A stretch of 64,000 nucleotides of DNA from positions 1-64,000 of the forward strand of contig JAPLDF010000072.1 in NCBI GenBank assembly GCA_026391835.1, given 5' to 3'. The position numbers and the translations under genes were made by a program. Numbering within the stretch: the first letter of the stretch is position 1; the number at the start of each line of letters is the position of its first letter. The notes beneath the pieces are model-generated. The model did no database searches. It saw only the letters and a program-made list of their open reading frames with translations, and had not been told where the DNA came from. Origin of the DNA: Bacteroidota bacterium. GTDB lineage: Bacteria > Bacteroidota > Bacteroidia > Bacteroidales > FEN-979. Positions 19,941 to 31,821 of the stretch are shown one piece after another.

Positions 19941-21332
19941 ATGAAAATCACCTTCTATGGCGCTGCCGGCGGTGTAACCGGAACCGCTTATTACTGTGAA
20001 TCTTCCGGCGCCCGCATCATGATCGATTGCGGAATGTTCCAGGGTGGAAGGCGCGACGAATCGAGGAATAAGGCTGCCCCCCCTGTCAATTACACCACGC
20101 TCGATGCGATTGTGCTTACCCATGCACACCTCGATCACTGCGGGAGGCTGCCGCTCGCGGTCCGCGCAGGTTACCGCGGACCTATATTCGGAACGCCAGC
20201 CACGCTCGATCTGTCGGCCCTCGTTCTTCGCGACTCACTCAAAGTGCAAACCAGCGACCTCGATAAACAGAACCGTATGCTGGTCCGCAACGGCAAGTCA
20301 AAAATAAAACCGGCTTTCGAAGAGGCCGACGTGGAAGGGGCCATCCTGCAAATGAGACCACTCCCCTACCACCAGGCCTTCGGCGTTGCACCAGGCATGG
20401 AGATCACTGTAGATGAGGCCGGCCATATCCTGGGATCGGGTAGTCTAAAACTGACGGTGGAGGAACGGTCGCAAAAAAAATCGGTGATCTTTTCGGGCGA
20501 TCTCGGAGCCGCCGGGATGCCCATTGTGCGCGACCCCGAGCCCTTCAGGGAGGCAAACATGGTGATCATGGAATCGACCTACGGCGACCGCGACCACAAG
20601 CCATTGCAGGAGACCATCGATGAAGCAATCGGCATTATCAGGGAGGCACTGCATACCAAAGGAAAAATCCTGGTACCCTCTTTTGCCATCGGCCGTACCC
20701 AGGATCTCATCTATTATTTTGAACAGGCATTCAGGAAAGGGGGATTGCCCCGGTTTCCGATATACATCGACAGCCCGATGGCCATCGAAGCTTCGAGGAT
20801 CTATGCAAATCACCCCGAACTGTTTGACGATGAGATGAATGAATTCATTCGCAGCGGCGAAATGGAGCGGGATAAAGGGTTAATACGTCCAACACCTACC
20901 GCCGAAGAGTCGAAACATCTCAACGATGTGCCGGGGCCCAGCATGATCATCGCCGGCTCGGGAATGTGCAATGCAGGCAGGATCAGGCATCACCTGCGCC
21001 ACAATTTGTGGAAACCGGAAACCTCCGTGCTCATTGTCGGATACCAGGCTGAAGGGACGCTCGGCAGGAAACTGGTCGACGGGAACCAATCGGTGAACAT
21101 TTTCGGTGAGCGGATTGCCGTACGGGCACAAATCCACAAACTCGGCGGGTTCAGCGCGCATGCCGGTCAAACTGATCTGCTGAAATGGTTCAATGTGCTT
21201 GCACCCGACCGCCCGCGGGTTGTCCTGACACACGGTGAAGAAAAAGCCAGGCTGCCCCTGGCTGAAATTATCCGCCACCGGTATGGCATACAGCCATACC
21301 TGCCACAATATGGAGACAGTATCGAACTTTAA
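19941..21332 (+). CDS. Beta-CASP metallo-beta-lactamase (RNase J/CPSF-like)
   Basis: A 463-residue cytoplasmic nuclease of the metallo-beta-lactamase/beta-CASP class. The metal site is visible as THAHLDHCG (residues 60-68), AGHILGSGS and SGDLGAAG. The beta-CASP region shows ESTYGDR, the GSGMCNAGR loop, GGFSAHAG and VVLTHGEE. The length and motif order match the archaeal-type CPSF/YSH1-like group found in many bacteria, which process or degrade RNA. It is 10 bp upstream of pyruvate kinase, so the two are probably one operon. Confidence 0.9.
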   Translation: MKITFYGAAGGVTGTAYYCESSGARIMIDCGMFQGGRRDESRNKAAPPVNYTTLDAIVLTHAHLDHCGRLPLAVRAGYRGPIFGTPATLDLSALVLRDSLKVQTSDLDKQNRMLVRNGKSKIKPAFEEADVEGAILQMRPLPYHQAFGVAPGMEITVDEAGHILGSGSLKLTVEERSQKKSVIFSGDLGAAGMPIVRDPEPFREANMVIMESTYGDRDHKPLQETIDEAIGIIREALHTKGKILVPSFAIGRTQDLIYYFEQAFRKGGLPRFPIYIDSPMAIEASRIYANHPELFDDEMNEFIRSGEMERDKGLIRPTPTAEESKHLNDVPGPSMIIAGSGMCNAGRIRHHLRHNLWKPETSVLIVGYQAEGTLGRKLVDGNQSVNIFGERIAVRAQIHKLGGFSAHAGQTDLLKWFNVLAPDRPRVVLTHGEEKARLPLAEIIRHRYGIQPYLPQYGDSIEL

Positions 21333-21342
21333 CCCTATTCAT

Positions 21343-22761
21343 ATGAAGACACAGTACCGCCGCACAAAAATTGTCGCAACCATCGGCCCCGCAAGCAGCT
21401 CTCCCGAAATGATCCGGCTGTTGATTGAAGCCGGGATGGATGTGGCCCGGCTTAATTTCTCCCATGGAAAATATGAGGACCATGCACAGGTGATCAGGTC
21501 GCTCAGGATAATTTCCGATGAACTGAACAAACCCGTTACGATCATGCAGGACCTCCAGGGGCCGAAAATCAGGGTAGGGTCGCTTCCCGGCGGGAAAATG
21601 GACATCACCCGCGGGGATATCGTCACCCTGTTGCCCCAGGCAGAATATACGTCGGCGGCAGCCACCATCCCGATCGATTATCCCTATGTTGCCGAAGAGG
21701 CCAAGCCCGGCATGCAGGTATTGCTTGCCGATGGGTTGTTTGAACTGGAGGTTACCGAAATCGCCGGGCATGATGTGTTATGCAGGGTAATTGAAGGAGG
21801 TTGCCTCACCGACCACAAAGGGGTGAACTTCCCAAACCTCAACCTCCGGCTTCCGTCGTTGACGGAAAAAGATGTCAGGGACCTGGAATTCGGTCTTTCA
21901 CAGGATGTTGACTGGATATCCCTGAGTTTTGTCCGGTCGGCCGAAGATGTGATCGCCCTGAAAGCCCTGATCACGGAACAGGGGTATATGAAGCCCATCA
22001 TCGCCAAAATTGAGAAGCCGCAGGCCATCGATCACCTCGAAGAGATTGTAAATGTTGTGAATGGCATCATGGTTGCCCGTGGCGACCTGGGCGTTGAAAT
22101 GAGCCCCGACAAGGTCCCGATGCTCCAGAAACGCATCATAGAGCTTTGCAACCGCACCGGTAAAACAGTCATCACGGCCACGCAGATGCTCGAGAGCATG
22201 ATCCATGAGCCGCGTCCCACGCGCGCCGAGGCAAGCGATGTTGCCAATGCCATCATCGACGGAACGGATGCCATCATGCTTTCGGGAGAAACAGCCATGG
22301 GTGAATACCCGGTGAAAGCCATCGAGATGATGGTCCGGATCGCCCTGGATGTTGAAGCCAAGATCGAATTCAAGGTATACCCGCCTGCCGGTCACTCCGA
22401 CATCATTGCCCTTTGCCGTGCCGCAAACCAGATGGAAGATGTGATCAATCCTCAATGCATCGTGGTGATGACCACCGGCGGAAGGAGCGCGCAGTTCATC
22501 GCCGCGGAACGTCCAAAGTCCCCGGTATTCGCCTTCACCACGCACATCAAGGTATACCACGCGCTCAATTTGCTCTGGGGAGTCAACCCGATTTTGATCG
22601 AAGACCACCCTGATACCTTTGAGGAGATGGTCGTCATTGCTGAAAAGAACCTCCTTGCCAGGAACCTTGTCACCCCGGGAGATAAGATCCTTTTGCTGGG
22701 CGGAATTCCGGCACATGAGGCCGGGGGGACGAATTTCATCAATGTTCATACGATCCGCTGA
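21343..22761 (+). CDS. pyk: Pyruvate kinase
   Basis: A 472-residue glycolytic enzyme that converts phosphoenolpyruvate and ADP to pyruvate and ATP. It begins MKTQYRRTKIVATIGPASSS, and earlier in-frame ATGs would run into the nuclease gene. Landmarks are RLNFSHG, the substrate/metal site IIAKIEKPQAI and MVARGDLGVEM, and the signature KTVITATQMLESM. The C-terminal domain is present. The length is normal. The RNase-like gene directly upstream hints at joint expression, although a functional link is not known. Confidence 0.96.
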   Translation: MKTQYRRTKIVATIGPASSSPEMIRLLIEAGMDVARLNFSHGKYEDHAQVIRSLRIISDELNKPVTIMQDLQGPKIRVGSLPGGKMDITRGDIVTLLPQAEYTSAAATIPIDYPYVAEEAKPGMQVLLADGLFELEVTEIAGHDVLCRVIEGGCLTDHKGVNFPNLNLRLPSLTEKDVRDLEFGLSQDVDWISLSFVRSAEDVIALKALITEQGYMKPIIAKIEKPQAIDHLEEIVNVVNGIMVARGDLGVEMSPDKVPMLQKRIIELCNRTGKTVITATQMLESMIHEPRPTRAEASDVANAIIDGTDAIMLSGETAMGEYPVKAIEMMVRIALDVEAKIEFKVYPPAGHSDIIALCRAANQMEDVINPQCIVVMTTGGRSAQFIAAERPKSPVFAFTTHIKVYHALNLLWGVNPILIEDHPDTFEEMVVIAEKNLLARNLVTPGDKILLLGGIPAHEAGGTNFINVHTIR

Positions 22762-22794
22762 TCGCAGGTCATCCGTCAATAATTTCTGCACTTA

Positions 22795-22826
22795 TTTGTA
22801 AATTCAATCGTTCTGTTTATATTTGC
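22795..22826 (+). promoter_or_regulatory. Bacteroidota sigma-70-type promoter
   Basis: TTTG at 22795-22798, a 20-bp spacer and TATATTTG at 22819-22826 match the Bacteroidota -33/-7 consensus (TTTG, N19-21, TAnnTTTG). The start codon of the outer-membrane protein follows 17 bp later, so the leader would be about 10 nt. Confidence 0.6.
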
Positions 22827-22842
22827 TTTAAATTTTAAAGAT

Positions 22843-23481
22843 ATGAAAAAACTTCTTACATTTTTTGCAGTTTTGATCTGTATTCCCTTTATCCTCAAAT
22901 CACAGAGTGTCGAGGTGACTCCGTTCGGAGGGTATGTGTTTCCGGGAACCCTGAATGCCGATGGCGGCGATGTCAGGTTTTTAGGCAACGCCCAATATGG
23001 TGGCATGATCAGTATCGGGGTGAGCCGGGTAATGGACGTTGATTTAATCTACAATCGTATTGATACCAAGGCCGATGTGAATATATACAGCTGGAATAAC
23101 AGTTACAATTATGACCAGGTTCCTTTAAGCATTAATTATATGATGATCGGGTTCACCAAGAATTTCAGGGTTAATCCGACCGTATCGCCTTTTATCGGGT
23201 TTAACCTTGGCGCAACCCTCTTTTATCCAAAGGAAGATGCGGGTAAGCAATACCAGGAAGCCTGGTTCTTTGCCATGGGAATGAACGGTGGTGCGAAAGT
23301 TTATTTCAGCAAGCGTGTCGGTTTGCGCCTCCAGGCACAGTTGCTCCTTCCTGTACAGGGAGCCGGATTCTACATGTTTGCAGGCACCGGAGGGTCAGGT
23401 GGCGGAGTTTCAGTTTACTCAACTCTTGTACAGTTCGGCTTTACAGGCGGGCTGATCTTCAGGCTGGGACATATACAATAA
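22843..23481 (+). CDS. Small outer-membrane beta-barrel protein
   Basis: A 212-residue protein with a signal peptide (MKKLLTFFAVLICIPFILKS) and a C-terminal part with alternating hydrophobic residues, ending FTGGLIFRLGHIQ, typical of an 8-stranded OmpA/OmpW-like barrel. Repeated aromatic and glycine positions (GGMISIGVSRVMDVDLIYNR, MMIGFTKNFRVN) support this. No specific family or ligand is recognised. A good promoter precedes it and a terminator follows, so it is a single-gene unit. Confidence 0.75.
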   Translation: MKKLLTFFAVLICIPFILKSQSVEVTPFGGYVFPGTLNADGGDVRFLGNAQYGGMISIGVSRVMDVDLIYNRIDTKADVNIYSWNNSYNYDQVPLSINYMMIGFTKNFRVNPTVSPFIGFNLGATLFYPKEDAGKQYQEAWFFAMGMNGGAKVYFSKRVGLRLQAQLLLPVQGAGFYMFAGTGGSGGGVSVYSTLVQFGFTGGLIFRLGHIQ

Positions 23482-23526
23482 ACCTGCTGAGTTGCCTGTA
23501 TCGGTTATTGTTTAAAGCATTGTATG

Positions 23527-23562
23527 AAGAGGGCCACCTAAAAGGGCGTCCTCTTTTTTATT
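23527..23562 (+). terminator. Rho-independent terminator after the barrel gene
   Basis: AAGAGGGCCACC, an A-rich loop and GGGCGTCCTCTT form an imperfect stem followed by a run of T. It ends the transcription unit of 22843-23481. Confidence 0.6.
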
Positions 23563-23604
23563 GCAGGCTATAAACAATCTGTACAATAACCCATATCCGT
23601 CATA

Positions 23605-23685
23605 AATCCCGTCAGGGATTAAATCCGGGAAGCAGGCGATTGGCAGAGAGGGTATTTCGTCCCGTATGGGACGAGATTGAACGGG
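23605..23685 (-). repeat. Dispersed palindromic repeat (GGGACGAAATACC family), copy 1
   Basis: Read on the minus strand, this segment has GGGACGAAATACC, a variable middle and CTTCCCGGATTTAATC. The same order occurs on the plus strand at 24753-24799. It also contains the palindrome GTCCCGTATGGGAC (23659-23672) and CCCGTCAGGG. This looks like a REP-type intergenic repeat. Confidence 0.5.
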
Positions 23686-23688
23686 ATC

Positions 23689-24321
23689 CTAATACTCGCC
23701 GAATTTATAACTTATTCCGAGGTTGAGCACCGAATTAGTTCCAATGCCAAACTCGCCGTAAAAGCTGATGGCCCTGCCGAAACGGAAACCAAGCAGGGTG
23801 AGTTGTGCGGAAGGAAATATTTTCTGTCCTTTTGAAACAAAGACTCCTCCGTCGGCTTTTGTTTTCTCAAAGTAATCCATTACCACGCCCAGGCCTACAC
23901 CCGAATACATGCAAAATGAGGGTTTGTTGAGATACTGGAAACGGATACTGGCAATCCCCTGCCACAGGTTATCTGACATATTAATGTCATATGATGTAGA
24001 ATTATACGACACATTATTATAATCATAGAAGGTTCCCGTGCGGCCAATATTTGTATAACTCAGTTGAAAACCAACAGCAATCACAGGGATCAGCGAACGC
24101 GAAAATCCCAGTATGAATGTACCATTCGTTGTATTGGCCTTGCATTCCTCATTGTCAATGTAATATAAAAATGTACCGACCCCATAAGACAAATAAAGGT
24201 TGTTGGCCATGTCTGCCTGGCTTTTAGGTTTATCGGCCTTCGCTGCTTCTTTGTCCTGGCCAAATGTACAGGCAATGCCTGTGAAAATAAGCGCCATGGT
24301 GAAAAGGATCGTCTTTTTCAT
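23689..24321 (-). CDS. Outer-membrane beta-barrel protein
   Basis: A 210-residue protein with a signal peptide (MKKTILFTMALIFTGIACTF, cleavage after FGQ) and a short charged linker rich in Lys/Ala. The barrel-like remainder has NNLYLSYGVGTFLYYI, VGFQLSYTNIG and a terminal strand NSVLNLGISYKFGEY. No family name can be given. The start at MKKTIL was preferred to an ATG 42 bp upstream because it gives a proper signal. It is 26 bp downstream of ppnP on the same strand. Confidence 0.7.
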   Translation of the reverse strand: MKKTILFTMALIFTGIACTFGQDKEAAKADKPKSQADMANNLYLSYGVGTFLYYIDNEECKANTTNGTFILGFSRSLIPVIAVGFQLSYTNIGRTGTFYDYNNVSYNSTSYDINMSDNLWQGIASIRFQYLNKPSFCMYSGVGLGVVMDYFEKTKADGGVFVSKGQKIFPSAQLTLLGFRFGRAISFYGEFGIGTNSVLNLGISYKFGEY

Positions 24322-24347
24322 CTCGTTGTTTTTAGGTTTGACTTCAG

Positions 24348-24629
24348 TTACAGGTACAGGCAAAAATAGGCCGCGTCGAATGCGATGCGCAACCTGAACT
24401 TCTTATCCTTAGGGACAATAAACATCTCAAACGGGTTGAACTCCTTCCACTCCTGTTCGCCGGGCAGCTGAACCACCATCACGCCGGAGATCACGGTCAT
24501 GTGTTCGACCGTGGAGGTTCCGAATTCATATTCCCCGGGAGCCATCACGCCCATGGTTGCAGGTCCTTCAAGCGTTGTAAAGGCGATTGATTTCACCTTG
24601 CCGTCAAAATATTCATTCGTTTTAAACAT
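24348..24629 (-). CDS. ppnP: Pyrimidine/purine nucleoside phosphorylase PpnP
   Basis: A 93-residue single-domain cupin that matches E. coli PpnP (YaiE, DUF1255) along its length: NEYFDGKVKSIAF, GVMAPGEYEF, EHMTVISGVM, FIVPKDKKF and the C-terminal YFCLYL. PpnP performs phosphorolysis of several nucleosides to base and ribose-1-phosphate, acting in nucleoside salvage. The length is typical. It precedes the barrel gene on the minus strand. Confidence 0.92.
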   Translation of the reverse strand: MFKTNEYFDGKVKSIAFTTLEGPATMGVMAPGEYEFGTSTVEHMTVISGVMVVQLPGEQEWKEFNPFEMFIVPKDKKFRLRIAFDAAYFCLYL

Positions 24630-24752
24630 AGGTTAGTGTGTTGGTACATGATCGTTGATTTGTAAAATTAATATAAATTGTCAATGTTAATCAACCGGCC
24701 GAGAATTATTTTTCAGCTGTTCCGGAAATAAAAGAGGTTGTCTGAAAAGTCC

Positions 24753-24799
24753 GGGACGAAATACCATCTCCCATAATCACTTGCTACCTGGATTTAATC
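24753..24799 (+). repeat. Dispersed repeat (GGGACGAAATACC family), copy 2
   Basis: GGGACGAAATACCATCTC followed by CTTGCTACCTGGATTTAATC matches the minus strand of 23605-23685. It abuts the left end of the MITE-like element at 24801, so the MITE may have inserted at the edge of this repeat. Confidence 0.45.
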
Positions 24800-24800
24800 G

Positions 24801-24964
24801 GATCAAAAGGAATTTCTTGGGGGGGGGCAGGAATTTCGGATTTCAGATTTCGGATTTTAGATTTCACATCTCACACAGGGTAAAAAAAATTTGAAATCTG
24901 AAATTTGAAATCTGAATTGCGAATTTTATGCTTTGCTACCTCCCACCAGACATTTCTCTTGATC
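24801..24964. repeat. MITE-like element with terminal inverted repeats (164 bp)
   Basis: The left end GATCAAAAGGAATTTCTTGG and the reverse complement of the right end, GATCAAGAGAAATGTCTGG, match at most positions. The inside contains GGATTTCAGATTTC and its inverse GAAATCTGAAATTTGAAATC, so the transcript would fold into a long hairpin. It is related to 4997-5286, which shares the ends and the GCTTTGCTAC segment near the right end. Confidence 0.5.
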
Positions 24965-24999
24965 AGCGATCCATTGACAAGGCCGTCACGCCTGATGGC

Positions 25000-25034
25000 A
25001 AAAAATAAAAAAAGGGCGACCCTTTGGGCGCCCT
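25000..25034 (-). terminator. Rho-independent terminator (minus strand)
   Basis: AGGGCG (25013-25018) and CGCCCT (25029-25034) form a stem; read on the minus strand it is followed by a T-run (A-run 25000-25012 on the plus strand). It lies 26 bp beyond the stop of the barrel gene at 25060, which it should terminate together with the DUF4136 gene upstream. Confidence 0.7.
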
Positions 25035-25059
25035 CTCTGCAAGGTATTATAACGGACCG

Positions 25060-25710
25060 TTAACGAACGATCAGCACCAGCCCGACTTTCAGGTTAAGCA
25101 TTTGCAGATCCTTTGATGCGAAATTTTTGGCAAATTCGATTTTGTTGGTGGTCCATTTATAGTTGAACGCAACCAGGCCACCCCAGCTGGAGTAATTGCC
25201 GAATTTGATCAGTGCCCCGATTTCAGGTGTAAGGGAGAAATCCCACCGCGTTTTATACAGATCATATTCCTGGACCATCAGGTGATGCTCCATGTAATCG
25301 CCGCCAATACCAAGTCCAACATACGGAGAGACCATGCTTCCCGGCATCAGGTGGTAGGCAATTACAGCCTGGAAAGGAACCATCCAGGTAAAGCGGTAAT
25401 TTGTTGCGGTAATGGCCGATCCATCGGTACCATAATAGGTTTGGTACCCATAACTCTGGCTTACGCGTTGCCACATGATGTTGAACCCGGCAGCAAGCCC
25501 GCCCTTGATGAAATAACGGCCGCCAAGGTCAAAACCGGCCGGGCTGGCGTTGCCTACCCATTTGTTGAAATCACCCATGGTAAATGTGGTGTTCCATGAA
25601 AAGGTATAGTAGGAACTTGGTGTGAAACCCAGTGATGCAGGTTTGTCCTGTGCCTGCGCGATGCCTGTCATCAGGACCAGCGCCAAAAGTGCAATGAATA
25701 TCTTTTTCAT
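25060..25710 (-). CDS. Outer-membrane beta-barrel protein
   Basis: A 216-residue protein with a signal peptide (MKKIFIALLALVLMTGIAQAQ). The mature part has a start typical of small porin-like barrels (ASLGFTPSSYYTFSWNTTF), glycine- and aromatic-rich strands, and a last strand LQMLNLKVGLVLIVR. No specific family is recognised. It lies 22 bp downstream of the DUF4136 lipoprotein and shares its direction, and both end at the terminator at 25000-25034, so they form an operon. Confidence 0.7.
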   Translation of the reverse strand: MKKIFIALLALVLMTGIAQAQDKPASLGFTPSSYYTFSWNTTFTMGDFNKWVGNASPAGFDLGGRYFIKGGLAAGFNIMWQRVSQSYGYQTYYGTDGSAITATNYRFTWMVPFQAVIAYHLMPGSMVSPYVGLGIGGDYMEHHLMVQEYDLYKTRWDFSLTPEIGALIKFGNYSSWGGLVAFNYKWTTNKIEFAKNFASKDLQMLNLKVGLVLIVR

Positions 25711-25732
25711 ATCGAATATCGTTTTTATATGA

Positions 25733-26356
25733 TTAATGGCCTGGGAAACCCTTTGTTTGTTTAAAAGCCTGGTCAACGCTCTGGTTTATCTGGGCTGTCG
25801 TGTGACTCCCCGTGAGCAGGCCACGGATATAGGCATTCCAGCAAACGGGATACTTACCGCCCACCATGTCCTCTTTATTGACATTGATTAGATCAAGCAG
25901 CACGGTACCTACCGAATAGGAAGTTATGTAGGCAGGATAGTACGGGTAATAACCGCTTCCGCCCCAATAATAGGGAGGATAATAACCCCAGTACCAACCG
26001 GGATAGTATACATTGACATTAACGTTCACCATGTAGGAGGCAGCGAGAAACAGGTCGATACTTGTATCGCTGGAATTGGTCACTCTTGTATACCCCAGGT
26101 TCTTCATATTCACTGCAATTTCGTCGGTTAGTGACTTTACCTGCGCATTGTAATACATGCCACTGTCCTTGTCACTGATTTTGACAATGGAGTCGTTCAT
26201 GTAGTACTTCTTGAATTTTGCAAAGTTAACCGTCGTATCATATTTGGTGTAGATCGCCAGGTCTTCGAGCAATCTGTCTGATGACGGCGGATACTTGGTG
26301 CAGGAGGCCAGGATCAGGCCCGCACCCAGGAATAACAGGATCAGTTTTGTTTTCAT
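25733..26356 (-). CDS. DUF4136 lipoprotein
   Basis: A 207-residue lipoprotein: signal MKTKLILLFLGAGLILASC with the lipobox cysteine at residue 19. It matches the DUF4136 pattern, with a D-Y/F-A-x-Y-T-T-type N-terminus (YTKYDTTVNFAKFKKYY), LTDEIAVNMKNLGYTRV and a Tyr/Gly/Pro-rich insert (YYPGWYWGYYPPYYWGG). The function of the family is unknown; it is usually an envelope protein. It leads the two-gene operon with the barrel at 25060. Confidence 0.8.
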   Translation of the reverse strand: MKTKLILLFLGAGLILASCTKYPPSSDRLLEDLAIYTKYDTTVNFAKFKKYYMNDSIVKISDKDSGMYYNAQVKSLTDEIAVNMKNLGYTRVTNSSDTSIDLFLAASYMVNVNVNVYYPGWYWGYYPPYYWGGSGYYPYYPAYITSYSVGTVLLDLINVNKEDMVGGKYPVCWNAYIRGLLTGSHTTAQINQSVDQAFKQTKGFPGH

Positions 26357-26550
26357 ATTTTTAGTTTTTCTTGGTGCAAATATAATGAATATCCAATAAA
26401 ATAGCACACAATACAGTGCCGGTTTAAAATATTTTCAAATGATAACATTACCCCCATGATAATCAATTGCTAACGCCTAAAATTAGACATTCTGAAACCT
26501 CAGAATGACACATCCGGGCACAAACCAGGCTAATTGTAAAGATATTTCCT

Positions 26551-26558
26551 TAATTTTG
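26551..26558 (+). promoter_or_regulatory. -7 promoter element before the cytochrome operon
   Basis: TAATTTTG fits the Bacteroidota -7 consensus TAnnTTTG. It is 41 bp upstream of the cytochrome b start. I find no good -33 TTTG at the expected spacing, so confidence is low. Confidence 0.35.
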
Positions 26559-26599
26559 AACATCAGGTTGCCAGGCAATCCATCTCTTAATTTTTCTGA

Positions 26600-27862
26600 A
26601 TGCGTAGTGTCTTATTGCATCTTCACCCGGCAAAGGTCAGTGCCGCAGCCCTTCGCCTCCGCAGAACTTTCGGGCTCGGCGGGATGGCTGCACTGCTGAT
26701 CTTCATGCAGGTTATCACAGGGATCATGCTGCGGTTTTATTATGTGCCGAACCCCGCTGAGGCATACAATTCAATCTTGTTGCTGAAAAACCATGTGCTG
26801 TTCGGCCAGTTTATCCGCAACATCCATTACTGGAGCGGGGTATTCCTCCTGCTTATCGCTTTCCTGCATTTTCTCAGGGTATTCTTTACCGGGGCGTACC
26901 GGGGAATCCGGACAATCAACTGGTTATTCGGGCTCATTCTGCTCATCCTGATCGTGGCTGCAAATTTCACCGGGTACCTGCTCCCCTGGGACCAGCTGGC
27001 CTACTGGGCGATTACGGTGAGTACGAACATCATCGGCTACCTGCCATGGGCAGGGAAGAGCCTCAGAACATTCATCATCGGCGGCAGGGAACTGGATGCA
27101 GGTACCCTCCAAAACTTCTTTACATTTCACACTGCCGTGGTACCATTGCTGCTGATTACCCTGGCGATCTATCATTTCTGGCGGGTCCGCAAGGCAGGCG
27201 GGATTTTGCTCCCCGGATCAACTGAAAAACCAGACATGGTTCCCGTTGTTCCGAACCTGGTTTTCAGGGAGCTGATTGCATCGCTGTTGCTCATGGCGGT
27301 GCTCTTTACCTTTGCAGCCGTCTTCAACGCGCCGCTGCTTGAGAAGGCAAACCCGGCATACAGCATGAACCCGACCAAGGCGCCCTGGTATTTTGGCGGG
27401 GTACAGGAGTTGCTGATGCACTTCCACCCATTTTTCGCCGCTTTTGTCATTCCGTTGGCAGTATTGGTTTTCCTGTCAGCGATCCCTTTTATAAAGTATG
27501 ACGAAGAACCTGTTGGCCAGTGGTTTTACTCTGATTTGGGGAAAAAATCATCAAAATCGACCATGTTGTTTGCCGGATTCATCACCCTGGCAGGCATCCT
27601 GTTCAATGCATATGTTTTTAATTTCGAGATTATGATGCCGGGGATGCCTGCCGTTATCAGCAACGGGATCATCCCGCTGCTGATCCTGCTCCTGTTTATG
27701 ACAGCCTATTACCGGTTTTGCCTGGGACCACTCAAGCTTTCAAAACCTGAACTGGTGCAGGCTGCCTTTGTATTCATCATGATTGCTTTTATCGTATTGA
27801 CAGTGGTCGGGGTGTTTTTCAGGGGAAAAGATATGGAACTTACATGGCCATGGAGGGTTTAA
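26600..27862 (+). CDS. Cytochrome b (b6-like N-domain fused to C-domain), quinol oxidase core of a bc-type complex
   Basis: A 420-residue membrane protein with about eight helices. Four histidines suitable for two hemes are H76 and H90 (14 apart) and H177 and H192 (15 apart). The 14/15 spacing is that of cytochrome b6, whereas bc1 has 14/14. Quinol-site features include the KAPWYFGG loop, corresponding to PEWY. The C-terminal half, corresponding to subunit IV, is fused in the same chain. Such proteins oxidise menaquinol and pass electrons to the Rieske protein. The genes for the Rieske protein and an octaheme cytochrome follow with 5-bp spacing and a 4-bp overlap, so the three should form one complex. 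Confidence 0.9.
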   Translation: MRSVLLHLHPAKVSAAALRLRRTFGLGGMAALLIFMQVITGIMLRFYYVPNPAEAYNSILLLKNHVLFGQFIRNIHYWSGVFLLLIAFLHFLRVFFTGAYRGIRTINWLFGLILLILIVAANFTGYLLPWDQLAYWAITVSTNIIGYLPWAGKSLRTFIIGGRELDAGTLQNFFTFHTAVVPLLLITLAIYHFWRVRKAGGILLPGSTEKPDMVPVVPNLVFRELIASLLLMAVLFTFAAVFNAPLLEKANPAYSMNPTKAPWYFGGVQELLMHFHPFFAAFVIPLAVLVFLSAIPFIKYDEEPVGQWFYSDLGKKSSKSTMLFAGFITLAGILFNAYVFNFEIMMPGMPAVISNGIIPLLILLLFMTAYYRFCLGPLKLSKPELVQAAFVFIMIAFIVLTVVGVFFRGKDMELTWPWRV

Positions 27863-27867
27863 ATTGA

Positions 27868-28398
27868 ATGAAAAAAACTGATCAAACCAGGCAACCGGGC
27901 CATCCCGGGGGTTCCCCTTCGGGGGTTGTCAGCCGTCGTGATTTTTTCGGACTGGCGTGGAAAGGACTTGGCCTGGTTGCAGCGGTTGAGGTTCTCGGAA
28001 TGGTGTCGGCCTACTTTTTCTCAGGGAAGAAAAAAAACGGTGCACCACCGAAACAATTGCTCGAAGCCGGTCCTGTGGATTCCTTCGCACGGGGTTCAGT
28101 CAACGCATTCATGGGTGGGAGATTTTTCCTGGCTCGGCAGCTTGATGGCGGCTTTATTGCCCTGTCGCTGCGATGCACCCACCTGGGTTGTTCGGTATCA
28201 TGGGAAGAGCATAAAAAAAGGTTCATCTGCCCGTGCCACTCCTCGGCCTTCGACATCAGCGGTGAAGTGCTGAACCCTCCTGCCGCCCGGGCCCTGGACT
28301 ATTACCCTGTGATGATCGAAAACGGGCTGGTGAAGGTGGATATCGCCACCCTGAAGGAGCGGAAAACATTCAGAAAAGACCAATTAATCTACGCATGA
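27868..28398 (+). CDS. Rieske iron-sulphur protein of the bc-type complex
   Basis: A 176-residue protein with a twin-arginine signal (VVSRRDFFGLA, R23-R24) that also serves as membrane anchor. The Rieske cluster motifs are C103-T-H105-L-G-C108 and C121-P-C-H124-S-S. By analogy with known Rieske proteins, C103, H105, C121 and H124 bind the 2Fe-2S cluster, and C108 and C123 form the disulphide. The protein accepts electrons from quinol at the Qo site. It is the second gene of the operon; its TGA overlaps the ATG of the multiheme cytochrome. Confidence 0.93.
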   Translation: MKKTDQTRQPGHPGGSPSGVVSRRDFFGLAWKGLGLVAAVEVLGMVSAYFFSGKKKNGAPPKQLLEAGPVDSFARGSVNAFMGGRFFLARQLDGGFIALSLRCTHLGCSVSWEEHKKRFICPCHSSAFDISGEVLNPPAARALDYYPVMIENGLVKVDIATLKERKTFRKDQLIYA

Positions 28399-30701
28399 TG
28401 ATCACGAACCACAGATCCTGGAAGATGGCCGGACTGGTTGCCACAGTGGTTATTGTGCTCAGCTTCCCGCTTTCACTGCTGCTCAACCACAACCAGGGCG
28501 GATCTGAGCAGCCGGCAGCTTCATTCACCGGCGGGAAGGCCTGCATCGAATGCCATCAGAAAGAGTACAGGCTGTGGAAAGGTTCTGATCACGACAATGC
28601 CATGAGCATCGCCTCGGATACCTCAGTTTTGGGTGATTTTAACAATACTTCATTCACCTTCAATGGCAAGACTTCGAAATTTTATAAACGCAACGGGAAG
28701 TTCTACGTTTTTACCGAAGCCACAGGCGGCAGGATGATGGAGCTGCAGGTTTCCCATACATTCGGCATCAGGCCGCTCCAGCAGTACCTGGTCCCTTTCG
28801 GCAATGGCCGCTACCAGTGCCTGCCCATCGCCTGGAATACCGTTGAGAAGAAATGGTTCCAGATGGCAGCCATGGTTTACAAACCGGAAGACCTGGAACC
28901 TGTCAACTGGCTTTACTGGACCAACCAGGCCCAGAACTGGAACAGCATGTGCGCTGAATGCCACTCCACAAACCTGCAGAAAAATTTCGACATTACCACA
29001 AAATCGTACCATACCACCTTCAACGACATCAATGTGAATTGTGAAGCGTGCCACGGACCAGGTTCGGCGCATATTGAATGGGCCAGGCTCCCGGAACTGG
29101 CAAGACCGGTCGGCATCAATGCGGGCCTCCTGGTAAAAACCAGCAGCATCACTTCGCGCCAGTACGTGGAATCGTGTGCCCCGTGCCATGCCCGCCGGAG
29201 TTCGACCGGTCCTTACGACCACAATCACCCGGAATTCCTTAATTATGCAATTCCACAGTTACCTGTCCGCCCGGCATACAACATCGACGGGCAGTTTAAG
29301 GACGAAGACTATGAGTATGGCTCATTCACCCAGAGCAAGATGTACATGAAGGATGTACGCTGCGGCGACTGCCACGATCCGCACAGCCTGAAACGGAAAT
29401 TTGAAGGGAACGCCCTGTGTACCCAATGCCACCGTGCTGATGAGTACGATACCTACAACCACCACCTGCATAAATCAAAAGGTGAGGCGGGCACTTCGTT
29501 CATCAACAAAGCGGGACAGAAACTCGGACCGGGCGACGGGAACCTTTGCCGTGACTGCCACATGCCGGGCCGGTTTTATATGGGTGTCGACCGGAGGTAC
29601 GACCACAGCATGCGGATCCCCCGGCCTGACCTCTCGCTGCAGCTCGGAACACCCAATGCCTGCACCAACTGCCATGACGACAAGTCTGACCAGTGGGCAC
29701 TGCAGAATGTCAACAAATGGTATGGTGAAAGGAAAAAGGCGCATTATGCCACCATCCTGGCTGCGGCCGCATCGGGAACACCCGGTGCCGATTCCGGTCT
29801 GCTCAGGATCATCAACAGCAACCTCTATCCCGAAATTATCAGGGCAACGGCCATCGGGTATCTTTCCGGTTACCCGGGGGTAAAAGCGCAGGAGGTGGTG
29901 CGCAGGGCACTTGGCGATCCCGATCCCCTGCTGCGGCATACGGCAGTTGAAGACTTTGCCTCTTCCGATTCTGCAGGCTTGATGCGCATTCTTGTTTCCA
30001 TGCTCGGCGATCCTGTGAAATCGGTGCGAATGGAGGCTGCAAACAGGCTGTCAACTTACCCCGAAACTGCCTTTAACCAGATCCAGTATCCCCTGTTCCT
30101 GAAAGCACTTGACGAATATAAACAGGCGCAGGAGTATGTTGCCGATTTCCCGACAGGCCGGTACAACCTGGGCAATTTTTACTCTAAAAGAAAAGATTAT
30201 GCCAAAGCCGAAGAAAACTATCGCGAAGCCATCTCCATCGACAACCTGTTTTATCCGGCCAAAGTAAACCTTGCGATCCTCTATTATAAACAGGGCAAGT
30301 CGGAATTGGCCGAACAACTGTTCCGCGACCTGGTTCTCAACCATTCAGCCTTCACCGACGGGTATTACTATCTCGCTTTGCTTTACGGCGAACAGAAAAA
30401 ATATCCCGAAGCCATTGCATTGCTCGAAACGGCGGTGACCAAACCCGGCATCAATCCAAGGATCTGGTATAACCTTGGGCTGCTGTACCAGATGACTGGC
30501 CAGGATGAGAAGTGTATAACCACCCTGGCGAAAGGGCTCCAAGCCGATCCATGCAACTACGACCTGCTCTATGCGTTGTTTGCCTATTACATGAACAGGA
30601 ATGAACGGGATAAAGCTGCTCCCTATATCAACAAAATGAGATCCTGCTTCCCGGCCGAAAAGGTTGTGCAGGAGATGTATGCCAGGTTCCTGCACAAATG
30701 A
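28395..30701 (+). CDS. Octaheme c-type cytochrome with HEAT and TPR repeats
   Basis: A 768-residue protein with an N-terminal membrane anchor (about residues 11-30) and eight CXXCH motifs: CIECH (from residue 50), CAECH, CEACH, CAPCH, CGDCH, CTQCH, CRDCH and CTNCH. All lie in the first 440 or so residues; the fold resembles the cytochrome c554 family. Residues of about 480-560 look like HEAT-type helical repeats (RRALGDPDPLLRHTAVEDFA, SMLGDPVKSVRMEAANRLS). The last 170 residues hold four TPR-like units (YNLGNFYSKRKDYAKAEENY). In this operon it takes the place of cytochrome c1 or f, so it probably accepts electrons from the Rieske protein. The repeats may bind a partner. The acceptor is unknown. 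Confidence 0.88.
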   Translation: MMITNHRSWKMAGLVATVVIVLSFPLSLLLNHNQGGSEQPAASFTGGKACIECHQKEYRLWKGSDHDNAMSIASDTSVLGDFNNTSFTFNGKTSKFYKRNGKFYVFTEATGGRMMELQVSHTFGIRPLQQYLVPFGNGRYQCLPIAWNTVEKKWFQMAAMVYKPEDLEPVNWLYWTNQAQNWNSMCAECHSTNLQKNFDITTKSYHTTFNDINVNCEACHGPGSAHIEWARLPELARPVGINAGLLVKTSSITSRQYVESCAPCHARRSSTGPYDHNHPEFLNYAIPQLPVRPAYNIDGQFKDEDYEYGSFTQSKMYMKDVRCGDCHDPHSLKRKFEGNALCTQCHRADEYDTYNHHLHKSKGEAGTSFINKAGQKLGPGDGNLCRDCHMPGRFYMGVDRRYDHSMRIPRPDLSLQLGTPNACTNCHDDKSDQWALQNVNKWYGERKKAHYATILAAAASGTPGADSGLLRIINSNLYPEIIRATAIGYLSGYPGVKAQEVVRRALGDPDPLLRHTAVEDFASSDSAGLMRILVSMLGDPVKSVRMEAANRLSTYPETAFNQIQYPLFLKALDEYKQAQEYVADFPTGRYNLGNFYSKRKDYAKAEENYREAISIDNLFYPAKVNLAILYYKQGKSELAEQLFRDLVLNHSAFTDGYYYLALLYGEQKKYPEAIALLETAVTKPGINPRIWYNLGLLYQMTGQDEKCITTLAKGLQADPCNYDLLYALFAYYMNRNERDKAAPYINKMRSCFPAEKVVQEMYARFLHK

Positions 30702-30864: not shown

Positions 30865-31821
30865 ATGAAAACAACATTCAATGCGATACGGATGACGACT
30901 TTGTTGTCTGTCTTAACTGTCGTATTCCTTTTTCTGCCAACAGTGAATGCCCAGCGGAATGGCGGACACTCCGGCGGTGGCAATAACCGGGCAGTATCGA
31001 AGCCGGCGTCGGCTCCAACCAAACAGGGCACCAGGGACGTTCAGAAACCAGCCACGCATCAGAAAGATGCGACAAGGACAACTGCCCCGGCAAGCAAACC
31101 GTCGACACGCGAGGCTGGTTCGACCCAGCGGAATCCTCAGGACCAGAAACCGGGCGGCAACAATGTGTCAACCGGAAACAGGACAAACGTCTCCACCGGC
31201 AACAAAACCAATGTCAGCGGGAATAATGTGAATGTAAACAACAGTAAGAATGTGAATGTAAACGTCAACAACAGGAGTACCGTTGTCGTAGCCAATCCCA
31301 GGCCCTACCCGAGGCCGCCATACGCTTACGGCGGACACAGCTACTACGCCTATCATCCCTACCATTACCACCCCTACACACCTTATCACTATGGGCCTTA
31401 CTATCACCCGGCAGGATTCTTCCTGGTTGCACTCGCTGCAACAGCCATCGTCGTGACTGCTGCCAGCCAGCAGTACCACTACGACCAGGGAGTCTATTAT
31501 GTTGCATCAAATGGCGGTTATACAGTGGTTCCGGCCCCGGTAGGTGCAACAATTACCACATTACCCCCCGGTTCACAAACAGTGGTGATCAATGAAACCA
31601 CCAACAACTACTATTACGGTGGCACTTATTATGAAAAGAAACCGGAGGGGTATACCGTTGTGCCTCCTACCGCCGGATCTGTTGTGGAAAATCTCCCTGA
31701 AGGTGGGAAAGAGGTGAAAATCGGGGAGGTTTCCTATGTCCAGGTCGGAGAGACCTATTACCAGCCGATCACCCAGGATGGCAAGAGCATGTACGAAGTG
31801 GTTGATGTAAAAACGGAATAG
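30865..31821 (+). CDS. DUF6515-like secreted protein, Asn/Tyr-rich
   Basis: A 318-residue exported protein (signal to about residue 29, VNAQ). It has a low-complexity basic region (about 30-110), an Asn/Val-rich stretch (NVNVNNSKNVNVNVNNRS), a Tyr/His/Pro-rich segment (YHPYHYHPYTPYHYGPYYHP), a transmembrane-like segment, and C-terminal repeats of GYTVVPAP and GATITTLPPG type, as in DUF6515 proteins. The function is unknown. A -7-like TATCTTTC lies upstream near 30738. It follows the cytochrome operon by 163 bp but with a separate composition, and is probably independent. Confidence 0.7.
   Translation: MKTTFNAIRMTTLLSVLTVVFLFLPTVNAQRNGGHSGGGNNRAVSKPASAPTKQGTRDVQKPATHQKDATRTTAPASKPSTREAGSTQRNPQDQKPGGNNVSTGNRTNVSTGNKTNVSGNNVNVNNSKNVNVNVNNRSTVVVANPRPYPRPPYAYGGHSYYAYHPYHYHPYTPYHYGPYYHPAGFFLVALAATAIVVTAASQQYHYDQGVYYVASNGGYTVVPAPVGATITTLPPGSQTVVINETTNNYYYGGTYYEKKPEGYTVVPPTAGSVVENLPEGGKEVKIGEVSYVQVGETYYQPITQDGKSMYEVVDVKTE

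Follow-up and report, generated by a model that had tools for sequence, protein, structure and literature searches.

How does a Rieske/cytochrome b complex pass on its electrons when an eight-heme cytochrome stands where cytochrome c1 or f would be? This question is raised by a three-gene operon in a 64,000-nt stretch of DNA (the window; positions 1-64,000 of contig JAPLDF010000072.1, assembly GCA_026391835.1) from a Bacteroidota bacterium (Bacteroidales; FEN-979). The operon encodes the following proteins:

26600..27862, forward strand: cytochrome b, 420 residues, a b6-like N-terminal half fused to a subunit-IV-like C-terminal half (PF00033, 5.2e-45)
27868..28398, forward strand: Rieske 2Fe-2S protein, 176 residues (PF00355, 9.5e-13)
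28395..30701, forward strand: octaheme cytochrome c with HEAT and TPR repeats, 768 residues (eight CXXCH motifs; Pfam)

Our analysis suggests that these proteins probably form one inner-membrane complex that oxidizes menaquinol, with the Rieske cluster reducing the octaheme. The identity of the genes, their order, the fold kinship of the octaheme and the co-inheritance of the subunits are observations, and are described below.

Among the open reading frames (ORFs) of the window, the cytochrome b and Rieske genes are separated by 5 bp, and the Rieske and octaheme genes overlap by 4 bp (ATGA). The initial annotation had proposed these three ORFs with the same coordinates and spacings, as well as a Rieske protein of the twin-arginine translocation (Tat) type, a cytochrome b with 14/15 histidine spacing and fused C-terminal domain, and an eight-heme cytochrome carrying HEAT and TPR repeats. 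The ORF list, Pfam matches and motifs agree with it throughout. The three-gene order that it suggested looking for in relatives was found in all 12 matches of 74-100% identity in the window's family and in 32 of the 89 octaheme loci examined. Such an arrangement is far beyond chance.

Within the family, the octaheme was detected in 16 of 43 genomes at E <= 1e-60. Twelve of the 43, the window's own included, encode a copy with 74-100% identity, always with cytochrome b and Rieske genes in the same order (one of these matches sits on a chimeric contig). Four genomes of genus g7 have octahemes of about 35-41% identity (one in two pieces) in a different arrangement: at loci L048-L050 a cluster of Rieske, cytochrome b and another eight-heme protein lies beside the octaheme, which is transcribed in the direction away from it, and at L047 cytochrome b and the eight-heme protein were seen with no Rieske ORF. 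This second eight-heme protein, labeled SEC8, has class-I cytochrome c domains (the L049 copy ends at six hemes, at a contig end). It resembles a 946-residue eight-heme protein of the Brocadia Rieske/b cluster (blastp 2.7e-25), which may correspond to the Kustd1485 position in the accessible text of PMC12954380.

For a wider view, a genome collection was scanned with alignment, and the best 80 of 493 loci encoding a relative were taken; these, less five duplicates and plus 14 family loci, gave 89 classified loci. Cytochrome b is on the same strand in 32 loci (type A, or linked), on the other strand in 10 (type B) and absent from the stretch in 47 (type C). Three type C loci end at a contig edge with Rieske directly upstream of the octaheme. 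The order in type A was seen by ORFs in 30 loci, and the Rieske genes of L088 and L104 were located by tblastn. Linked loci were found in Bacteroidales and Marinilabiliaceae, one Chlorobiota metagenome-assembled genome (MAG), Desulfocapsa MAGs and MAGs labeled Deltaproteobacteria or Proteobacteria. Cultured carriers include Thermophagus xiamenensis, Carboxylicivirga and Plebeiobacterium. Type C loci were seen in, among others, Gammaproteobacteria, Nitrospinaceae and Planctomycetota, the anammox bacteria among them. Unlinked relatives occur in anammox bacteria, Methylococcaceae, Planctomycetes, Nitrospinaceae and others, and we found no function for them. Within 4 kb, or up to the contig end where that is nearer (as in several cases), none of the 32 linked loci has another ORF with a CXXCH motif. 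This supports the proposal that the octaheme fills the position of c1 or f.

The chimeric locus (L061) is counted among the 32, its duplicate L036 is not, and L061 was left out of both trees described below. It lies on contig C23 of genome G031, whose DNA is almost the same as that of the window between 20824 and about 29395 (compared over 20824-30595); after that point, inside the octaheme gene, identity is about 53-77% per 100 bases. The other octaheme copy of G031 (contig C28) stops at residue 311. A hybrid octaheme was considered and rejected, a mis-joined contig being the simplest reading, with the join probably at a conserved stretch.

Phylogenetic analysis placed the linked proteins together. 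In the octaheme tree (78 proteins from 77 loci and the window; a quick search with midpoint root), type A, the three contig-end loci and L082 make up 33 rows that are separated from the 45 rows of types B and C by a branch with 99% support in the Shimodaira-Hasegawa-like approximate likelihood ratio test. Twelve of the 89 loci were left out as a chimera, fragments, mis-extended starts or near-copies. In the cytochrome b tree (86 rows; also quick, with several long branches flagged), the 32 type A rows (window included) and L175 together form one 99% branch. These trees bear on the idea that the octaheme is a separate enzyme, merely co-transcribed with a minimal cytochrome b/Rieske pair. Such an enzyme would fit the 47 of 89 loci with no cytochrome b nearby (at least three of them at a contig end) and the 10 with cytochrome b on the other strand. 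However, linked octahemes and linked cytochromes b each form one clade and no other c-type partner lies nearby, and we consider this explanation very unlikely.

An independent check came from cytochrome b itself. Relatives at E <= 1e-20 were detected in 149 of 395 genomes of the window's phylum and in 9 of 395 of its class, with at most four first-look candidates scored per genome. The view that Rieske/cytochrome b is uncommon here thus holds for the class and fails for the phylum. Within the class, only the window's own cytochrome b scores as type A (715 bits vs at most 253 for others). The phylum-wide search, made with cytochrome b alone, recovered the sequence L175, from a genome of another class. 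The locus around it (L217) encodes, besides cytochrome b, a Rieske protein and an eight-heme protein that matches the window's at 48% identity across 757 residues. The latter begins MKNWKLTGFIATLIIVL, an N-terminus of the same kind as in linked octahemes. Another five cytochrome b loci of the phylum (L218-L222) have no octaheme of this family within the stretch examined. Each carries Rieske and cytochrome b genes together with a SEC8-like gene and a gene homologous to the NAD(P) oxidoreductase-like one of Brocadia (identity 34-38% across some 600 residues), and they look like the anammox type. The SEC8-like protein was not seen in L217, and no homolog of the oxidoreductase-like gene was found in L217 or in the 89 octaheme loci. 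The window's complex is therefore not of the anammox type by this mark, which is present in 0 of 32 linked loci vs all five other phylum loci and both Brocadia loci.

Taken together, the operon with its 4-bp overlap, the order kept in relatives, the single clades of linked octahemes and cytochromes b, the presence of Rieske and octaheme genes beside a cytochrome b found on its own, and the lack of another heme-c ORF within 4 kb in the linked loci argue for one complex.

The cytochrome b and Rieske genes contain two short elements of note:

27377..27391, forward strand: KAPWY at the PEWY place of the quinol-oxidation site (by alignment), common to anammox and Nitrospina-type multiheme Rieske/b complexes
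28174..28245, forward strand: Rieske cluster boxes CTHLGC ... CPCHSS, conserved in the alignment

Four heme-b histidines lie on two helices, as in Rieske/cytochrome b complexes: H76/H90, 14 apart, and H177/H192, 15 apart, invariant in 14 of 14 aligned sequences. The Rieske protein begins with a twin-arginine motif (SRRDFF) and a hydrophobic stretch, and both cluster boxes, C-x-H-x-G-C and C-x-C-H-x-S, are present. Cytochrome bc1 is marked by 14/14 histidine spacing and cytochrome c1; cytochrome b6f is marked by the c_N heme cysteine, cytochrome f, split b6 and subunit IV, and PEWY. The window's protein belongs to neither type: its spacing is 14/15, Gly occupies the place where two Brocadia b6 proteins have the c_N Cys, its chain is fused, KAPWY replaces PEWY, and the only CXXCH ORF within 4 kb is the octaheme. 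KAPWY was also found in subunit-IV-type proteins of Brocadia, Jettenia and one Nitrospinaceae MAG. In addition, an N-terminal LHLHP is common to the window's cytochrome b and Brocadia b6-like proteins, and His43 of one Brocadia protein is its first histidine; this may be the same site as His43 of Kuste4571, for which an extra heme is predicted in the accessible part of PMC12954380. The best NCBIfam match was ExtP, at 251.1 bits, below the curated cut-off of 290 and thus outside that family; ExtQ gave 36.6 bits (cut-off 150). A further motif, L-x-H-x-x-P (mostly HFHP/HxHP), comes shortly after KAPWYF in linked cytochromes b (residues 272-277, window 27413-27430) and is missing from the anammox, Nitrospina-type and type B sequences listed.

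What kind of cytochrome has taken the place of c1 or f? The octaheme protein has four recognizable parts and a heme 2 motif of note:

28410..28493, forward strand: N-terminal helix (residues 6-33 in the AlphaFold2 model), a putative membrane anchor with no lipobox cysteine
28527..29729, forward strand: heme domain of OcwA/MccA type, residues 45-445 (hidden Markov model match to OcwA 2.9e-24; Foldseek OcwA 4e-11, MccA 9.2e-5)
28950..28964, forward strand: heme 2 motif CAECH (alignment with OcwA), whose counterpart is an active-site heme in OcwA, c554 and MccA
29835..30044, forward strand: HEAT repeats, residues 481-550 (PF13646, 5.6e-09)
30087..30689, forward strand: TPR repeats, residues 565-765 (TPR models up to 4.8e-17; helices in the model)

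Its CXXCH motifs start at residues 50, 186, 216, 261, 323, 342, 385 and 423, and its Pfam matches are Cytochrome_C554, Cytochrome_C7, HEAT_2 and TPR models. A relative of c1 or f was rejected, with no such match among those listed (25 of 29 Pfam and 25 of 34 NCBIfam families). An AlphaFold2 model of the octaheme alone had a mean predicted local distance difference test score (pLDDT) of 90.2 and a predicted template modeling score of 0.86, with a beta region between hemes 1 and 2 (residues 70-156). With the full-length model, TPR proteins were among the 50 Foldseek matches listed. A profile of 36 heme domains matched OcwA (6i5b; 2.9e-24) and the 6qvm undecaheme (1.2e-13). With the heme-domain model, the only solved structures at E <0.001 were OcwA (4e-11), 6qvm (3.8e-7) and MccA (9.2e-5); this model is moderate (pLDDT 69.1) and its eight matches at E <0.001 have root mean square deviations of 13.7-15.8 A, such that it serves for kinship only. 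By profile and fold similarity, the heme domain belongs to the OcwA/MccA/NrfA superfamily, which includes sulfite and extracellular-metal reductases.

This kinship raises the possibility that the octaheme is a terminal reductase that uses heme 2 to bind and reduce its substrate (sulfite, nitrite, tetrathionate or some other compound), in one complex with quinol oxidation. In the accessible text of PMC6703420, heme 2 is described as an active-site heme in OcwA, c554 and MccA, OcwA and MccA share a beta domain, OcwA hemes 1-4 and 6-9 match those of MccA, and the open hemes of OcwA are 2 and 5, which have His-His motifs; the text implies that six OcwA hemes are bis-His, one is His/Met and two are open. 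In the best-scoring alignment, octaheme hemes 5-8 correspond to OcwA hemes 6-9 and OcwA heme 5 is the missing one, as in MccA. Six histidines outside CXXCH motifs (66, 226, 330, 356, 359 and 404) are invariant in all 78 octahemes, as are Met 70, 316 and 396. Six extra histidines for eight hemes would leave room for one heme with no histidine ligand, which falls short of proof. One of the six, H356, falls together with H357 on the paired-histidine pocket of OcwA heme 5, the one that is missing here (offset 29, chain vs full-length numbering, inferred), and H357 (73 of 78) and H450 (53 of 78) could be further ligands. MccA attaches its heme 2 through a special CX15CH motif; the octaheme has CAECH and no CX15CH, and is not an MccA sulfite reductase by this mark. 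With the only solved structural relatives at E <0.001 being OcwA, 6qvm and a sulfite reductase on one side, and these ligand candidates and the MccA difference on the other, we regard a terminal reductase as somewhat unlikely.

The N-terminus would hold the octaheme to the membrane, and the helical tail may dock its partner. N-termini were sorted by a simple rule in 36 linked proteins (the 32, the three contig-end loci and L082) and in unlinked ones, excluding four unlinked loci with fewer than eight CXXCH motifs. A hydrophobic stretch with no cysteine was present in 36 of 36 linked octahemes, four of which have AxA, a possible cleavage site; a lipobox-like cysteine was found in 10 of 10 type B and 20 of 39 type C octahemes. 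Mean identity between the window's protein and 36 type C octahemes was 48% in the heme domain, 32% in HEAT and 28% in TPR. The faster divergence of the tail may weakly suggest tails matched to different partners, although helical repeats drift faster in general. The partner-binding role of the HEAT/TPR tail suggested in the initial annotation is thus putative.

Multiheme cytochromes in Rieske/b complexes are already known. The anammox Rieske/b complexes Kustd1480-1485 and Kuste4569-4574 include an NAD(P) oxidoreductase and split b6/subunit IV, as far as described in the accessible text of PMC12954380. Like the window's complex, they have Rieske, a b6-like cytochrome and a hexa- or octaheme cytochrome replacing cytochrome f, and their Brocadia counterparts have KAPWY and the N-terminal LHLHP. 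They differ in the c_N cysteine, Rieske before b, the NAD(P) oxidoreductase and split b6/subunit IV. In addition, their heme-c proteins are unrelated to the window octaheme, being either proteins with cytochrome-c domains or a six-heme protein plus one like hydrazine dehydrogenase/HAO.

Other systems share single features. Geobacter GSU2930-2937 has a b-type cytochrome and Rieske beside multiheme cytochromes, as here, but with 2-, 5-, 10- and 12-heme partners in the part of PMC2825233 that was accessible; of the NCBIfam families ExtP and ExtQ, ExtP is the best match of the window's cytochrome b, with both scores below curated cut-offs. In Caldithrix abyssi, Rieske/b is likewise proposed to feed an octaheme or NapM, but that octaheme is an epsilonHao in a Nap gene cluster (PMC5317091, accessible text); this paper cites Dibrova 2013 for the view that multiheme cytochromes accepted electrons from Rieske proteins early on. 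The octaheme is kin in its heme domain to OcwA (Thermincola, 6i5b) and MccA (Wolinella, 4rkm), which share a beta domain, and itself has a beta region; its hemes match OcwA 1-4 and 6-9, heme 5 being absent. The OcwA tail is a three-helix bundle (PMC6703420, accessible part), whereas that of the window octaheme consists of HEAT and TPR repeats. The window octaheme is in a cytochrome b/Rieske operon, a link that is not known to us for OcwA or MccA. A description of a Rieske/b complex with an OcwA/MccA-type octaheme or TPR repeats was not found at the level of titles and abstracts, with most subscription journals outside the coverage, and this type of partner appears to be new.

In our preferred reading, that of a single menaquinol-oxidizing complex, physical assembly, anchoring, a Q-cycle, the electron path and the acceptor could be pictured as follows. 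Menaquinone is assumed to be the quinone from the phylum. Menaquinol would be oxidized at a site near KAPWY; one electron would go to the b hemes, and the other to the Rieske cluster and on to the octaheme, which would substitute for c1 or f and be tethered to the membrane through its N-terminal helix. Electrons might then pass along its hemes to a periplasmic acceptor docked via the HEAT/TPR tail. The octaheme would have been recruited, probably once, from the OcwA/MccA-type octahemes with TPR repeats, a widespread family that otherwise consists of lipoproteins, secreted proteins and, in some cases, perhaps anchored proteins. Campylobacter QcrABC, a menaquinol Rieske/b complex feeding periplasmic reductases (PMC6195509, accessible text), provides a precedent for such a route.

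Several points weigh against this reading. The structure prediction covers the octaheme alone, and the three-subunit assembly is read from genes. Given KAPWY and the missing c_N cysteine, standard Q-cycle chemistry is an assumption. Nineteen of 39 unlinked octahemes likewise have no lipobox cysteine (six with AxA and 13 without, by the same crude rule), and several appear anchored by eye (e.g., L090, L106, L124, L139 and L140); a hydrophobic N-terminus is therefore not peculiar to the linked clade, and the anchor counts as lesser evidence. The gap between cytochrome b and Rieske is large in some relatives, for example 717 bp with an extra ORF at L076. Finally, L082 has the octaheme and no cytochrome b match in its draft genome, its contig starting just upstream.

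Where, then, would the electrons go? The window's genome has one Cytochrome_B match and three COX1-family matches: a cbb3 oxidase, one in an aa3-like cluster (by eye) and a 749-residue protein with no NCBIfam name. The aa3-like cluster adjoins a DsrO/DsrP-like FeS/NrfD pair, and CydAB-like genes were read by eye in L057. Six NrfD-family matches were detected; four loci were scanned, giving three DsrO/DsrP-like pairs (below curated cut-offs) and one PhsA-like molybdoenzyme. A canonical alternative complex III was not recognized: no ActA/ActB neighbors were seen at four partly scanned and two eye-read NrfD loci, and the ActB model matched no control. Among 29 carriers of the octaheme complex tested, 21 have a COX1-family match and eight have none; some are draft genomes that may miss genes.

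These data are consistent with an ordinary complex III, in which the octaheme passes electrons to a small cytochrome c and on to aa3-like and cbb3 oxidases. The cbb3 oxidase, another COX1, the single Cytochrome_B match and the presence of COX1-family genes in 11 of 11 same-family carriers tested agree with it. The eight carriers with no COX1-family match include the isolate Plebeiobacterium marinum and two Desulfocapsa MAGs, and within the family the octaheme is limited to 16 of 43 genomes (in 12 as part of the operon), but draft genomes and MAG gaps weaken these counter-points. This role is a genuine possibility, although not the one that we favor. As for the unusual acceptor proposed in the initial annotation, OcwA/MccA kinship and the carriers with no COX1 match speak for it, and the cbb3 and aa3-like COX1 of the genome speak against it.

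A separate cluster in the same genome (G000, contig C61; L055, 8440-16028) encodes a seven-heme protein, a five-heme protein with a lipoprotein-like start, two monoheme proteins and DsrO/DsrP-like FeS and NrfD proteins, and is possibly another multiheme respiratory route. One might suppose that an extracellular electron route begins at the octaheme complex in the inner membrane and runs through such cytochromes, especially as OcwA is a cell-surface terminal reductase (PMC6703420, accessible text) and the 6qvm protein is likewise by its entry title (S-layer). The C61 cluster, however, includes a separate FeS/NrfD pair, and nothing was seen that ties it to the window operon, making this route quite unlikely.

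Other genes near these loci were also noted. A DUF6515 gene (window 30865-31821) lies 3' of the operon, with a homolog placed likewise in L037, L040 and L046; in L044 and L045, a DUF3575-like gene overlaps the octaheme stop in its place (only the L044 copy was scanned). An arylsulfatase-like related gene was detected near the octaheme (tblastn, 1e-40) in 16 of 89 loci from several phyla (L039, L040, L042, L073, L047, L090, L092, L096, L103, L107, L109, L121, L127, L130, L134 and L139) and in 0 of 12 control stretches, which span 0.21 Mb vs 1.15 Mb, such that about three would be expected at the same density. Looser clustering gave 27 of 89 loci.

These findings suggest another way to fill the c-type position in Rieske/cytochrome b complexes, with an octaheme recruited from a reductase superfamily, in an arrangement that occurs in several bacterial groups. 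We can also envisage, as an unlikely but attractive extension, a self-contained proton-motive respiratory reductase, in which the Rieske/b core would be wired to the octaheme and an open heme 2 would reduce the acceptor with no soluble cytochrome c, combining Q-cycle quinol oxidation and substrate reduction within one three-subunit complex. The linked clade is a clue that the octaheme family belongs to respiratory electron transfer. It opens the question of whether a bc-type complex may feed a multiheme reductase directly and thereby conserve energy on acceptors other than oxygen.

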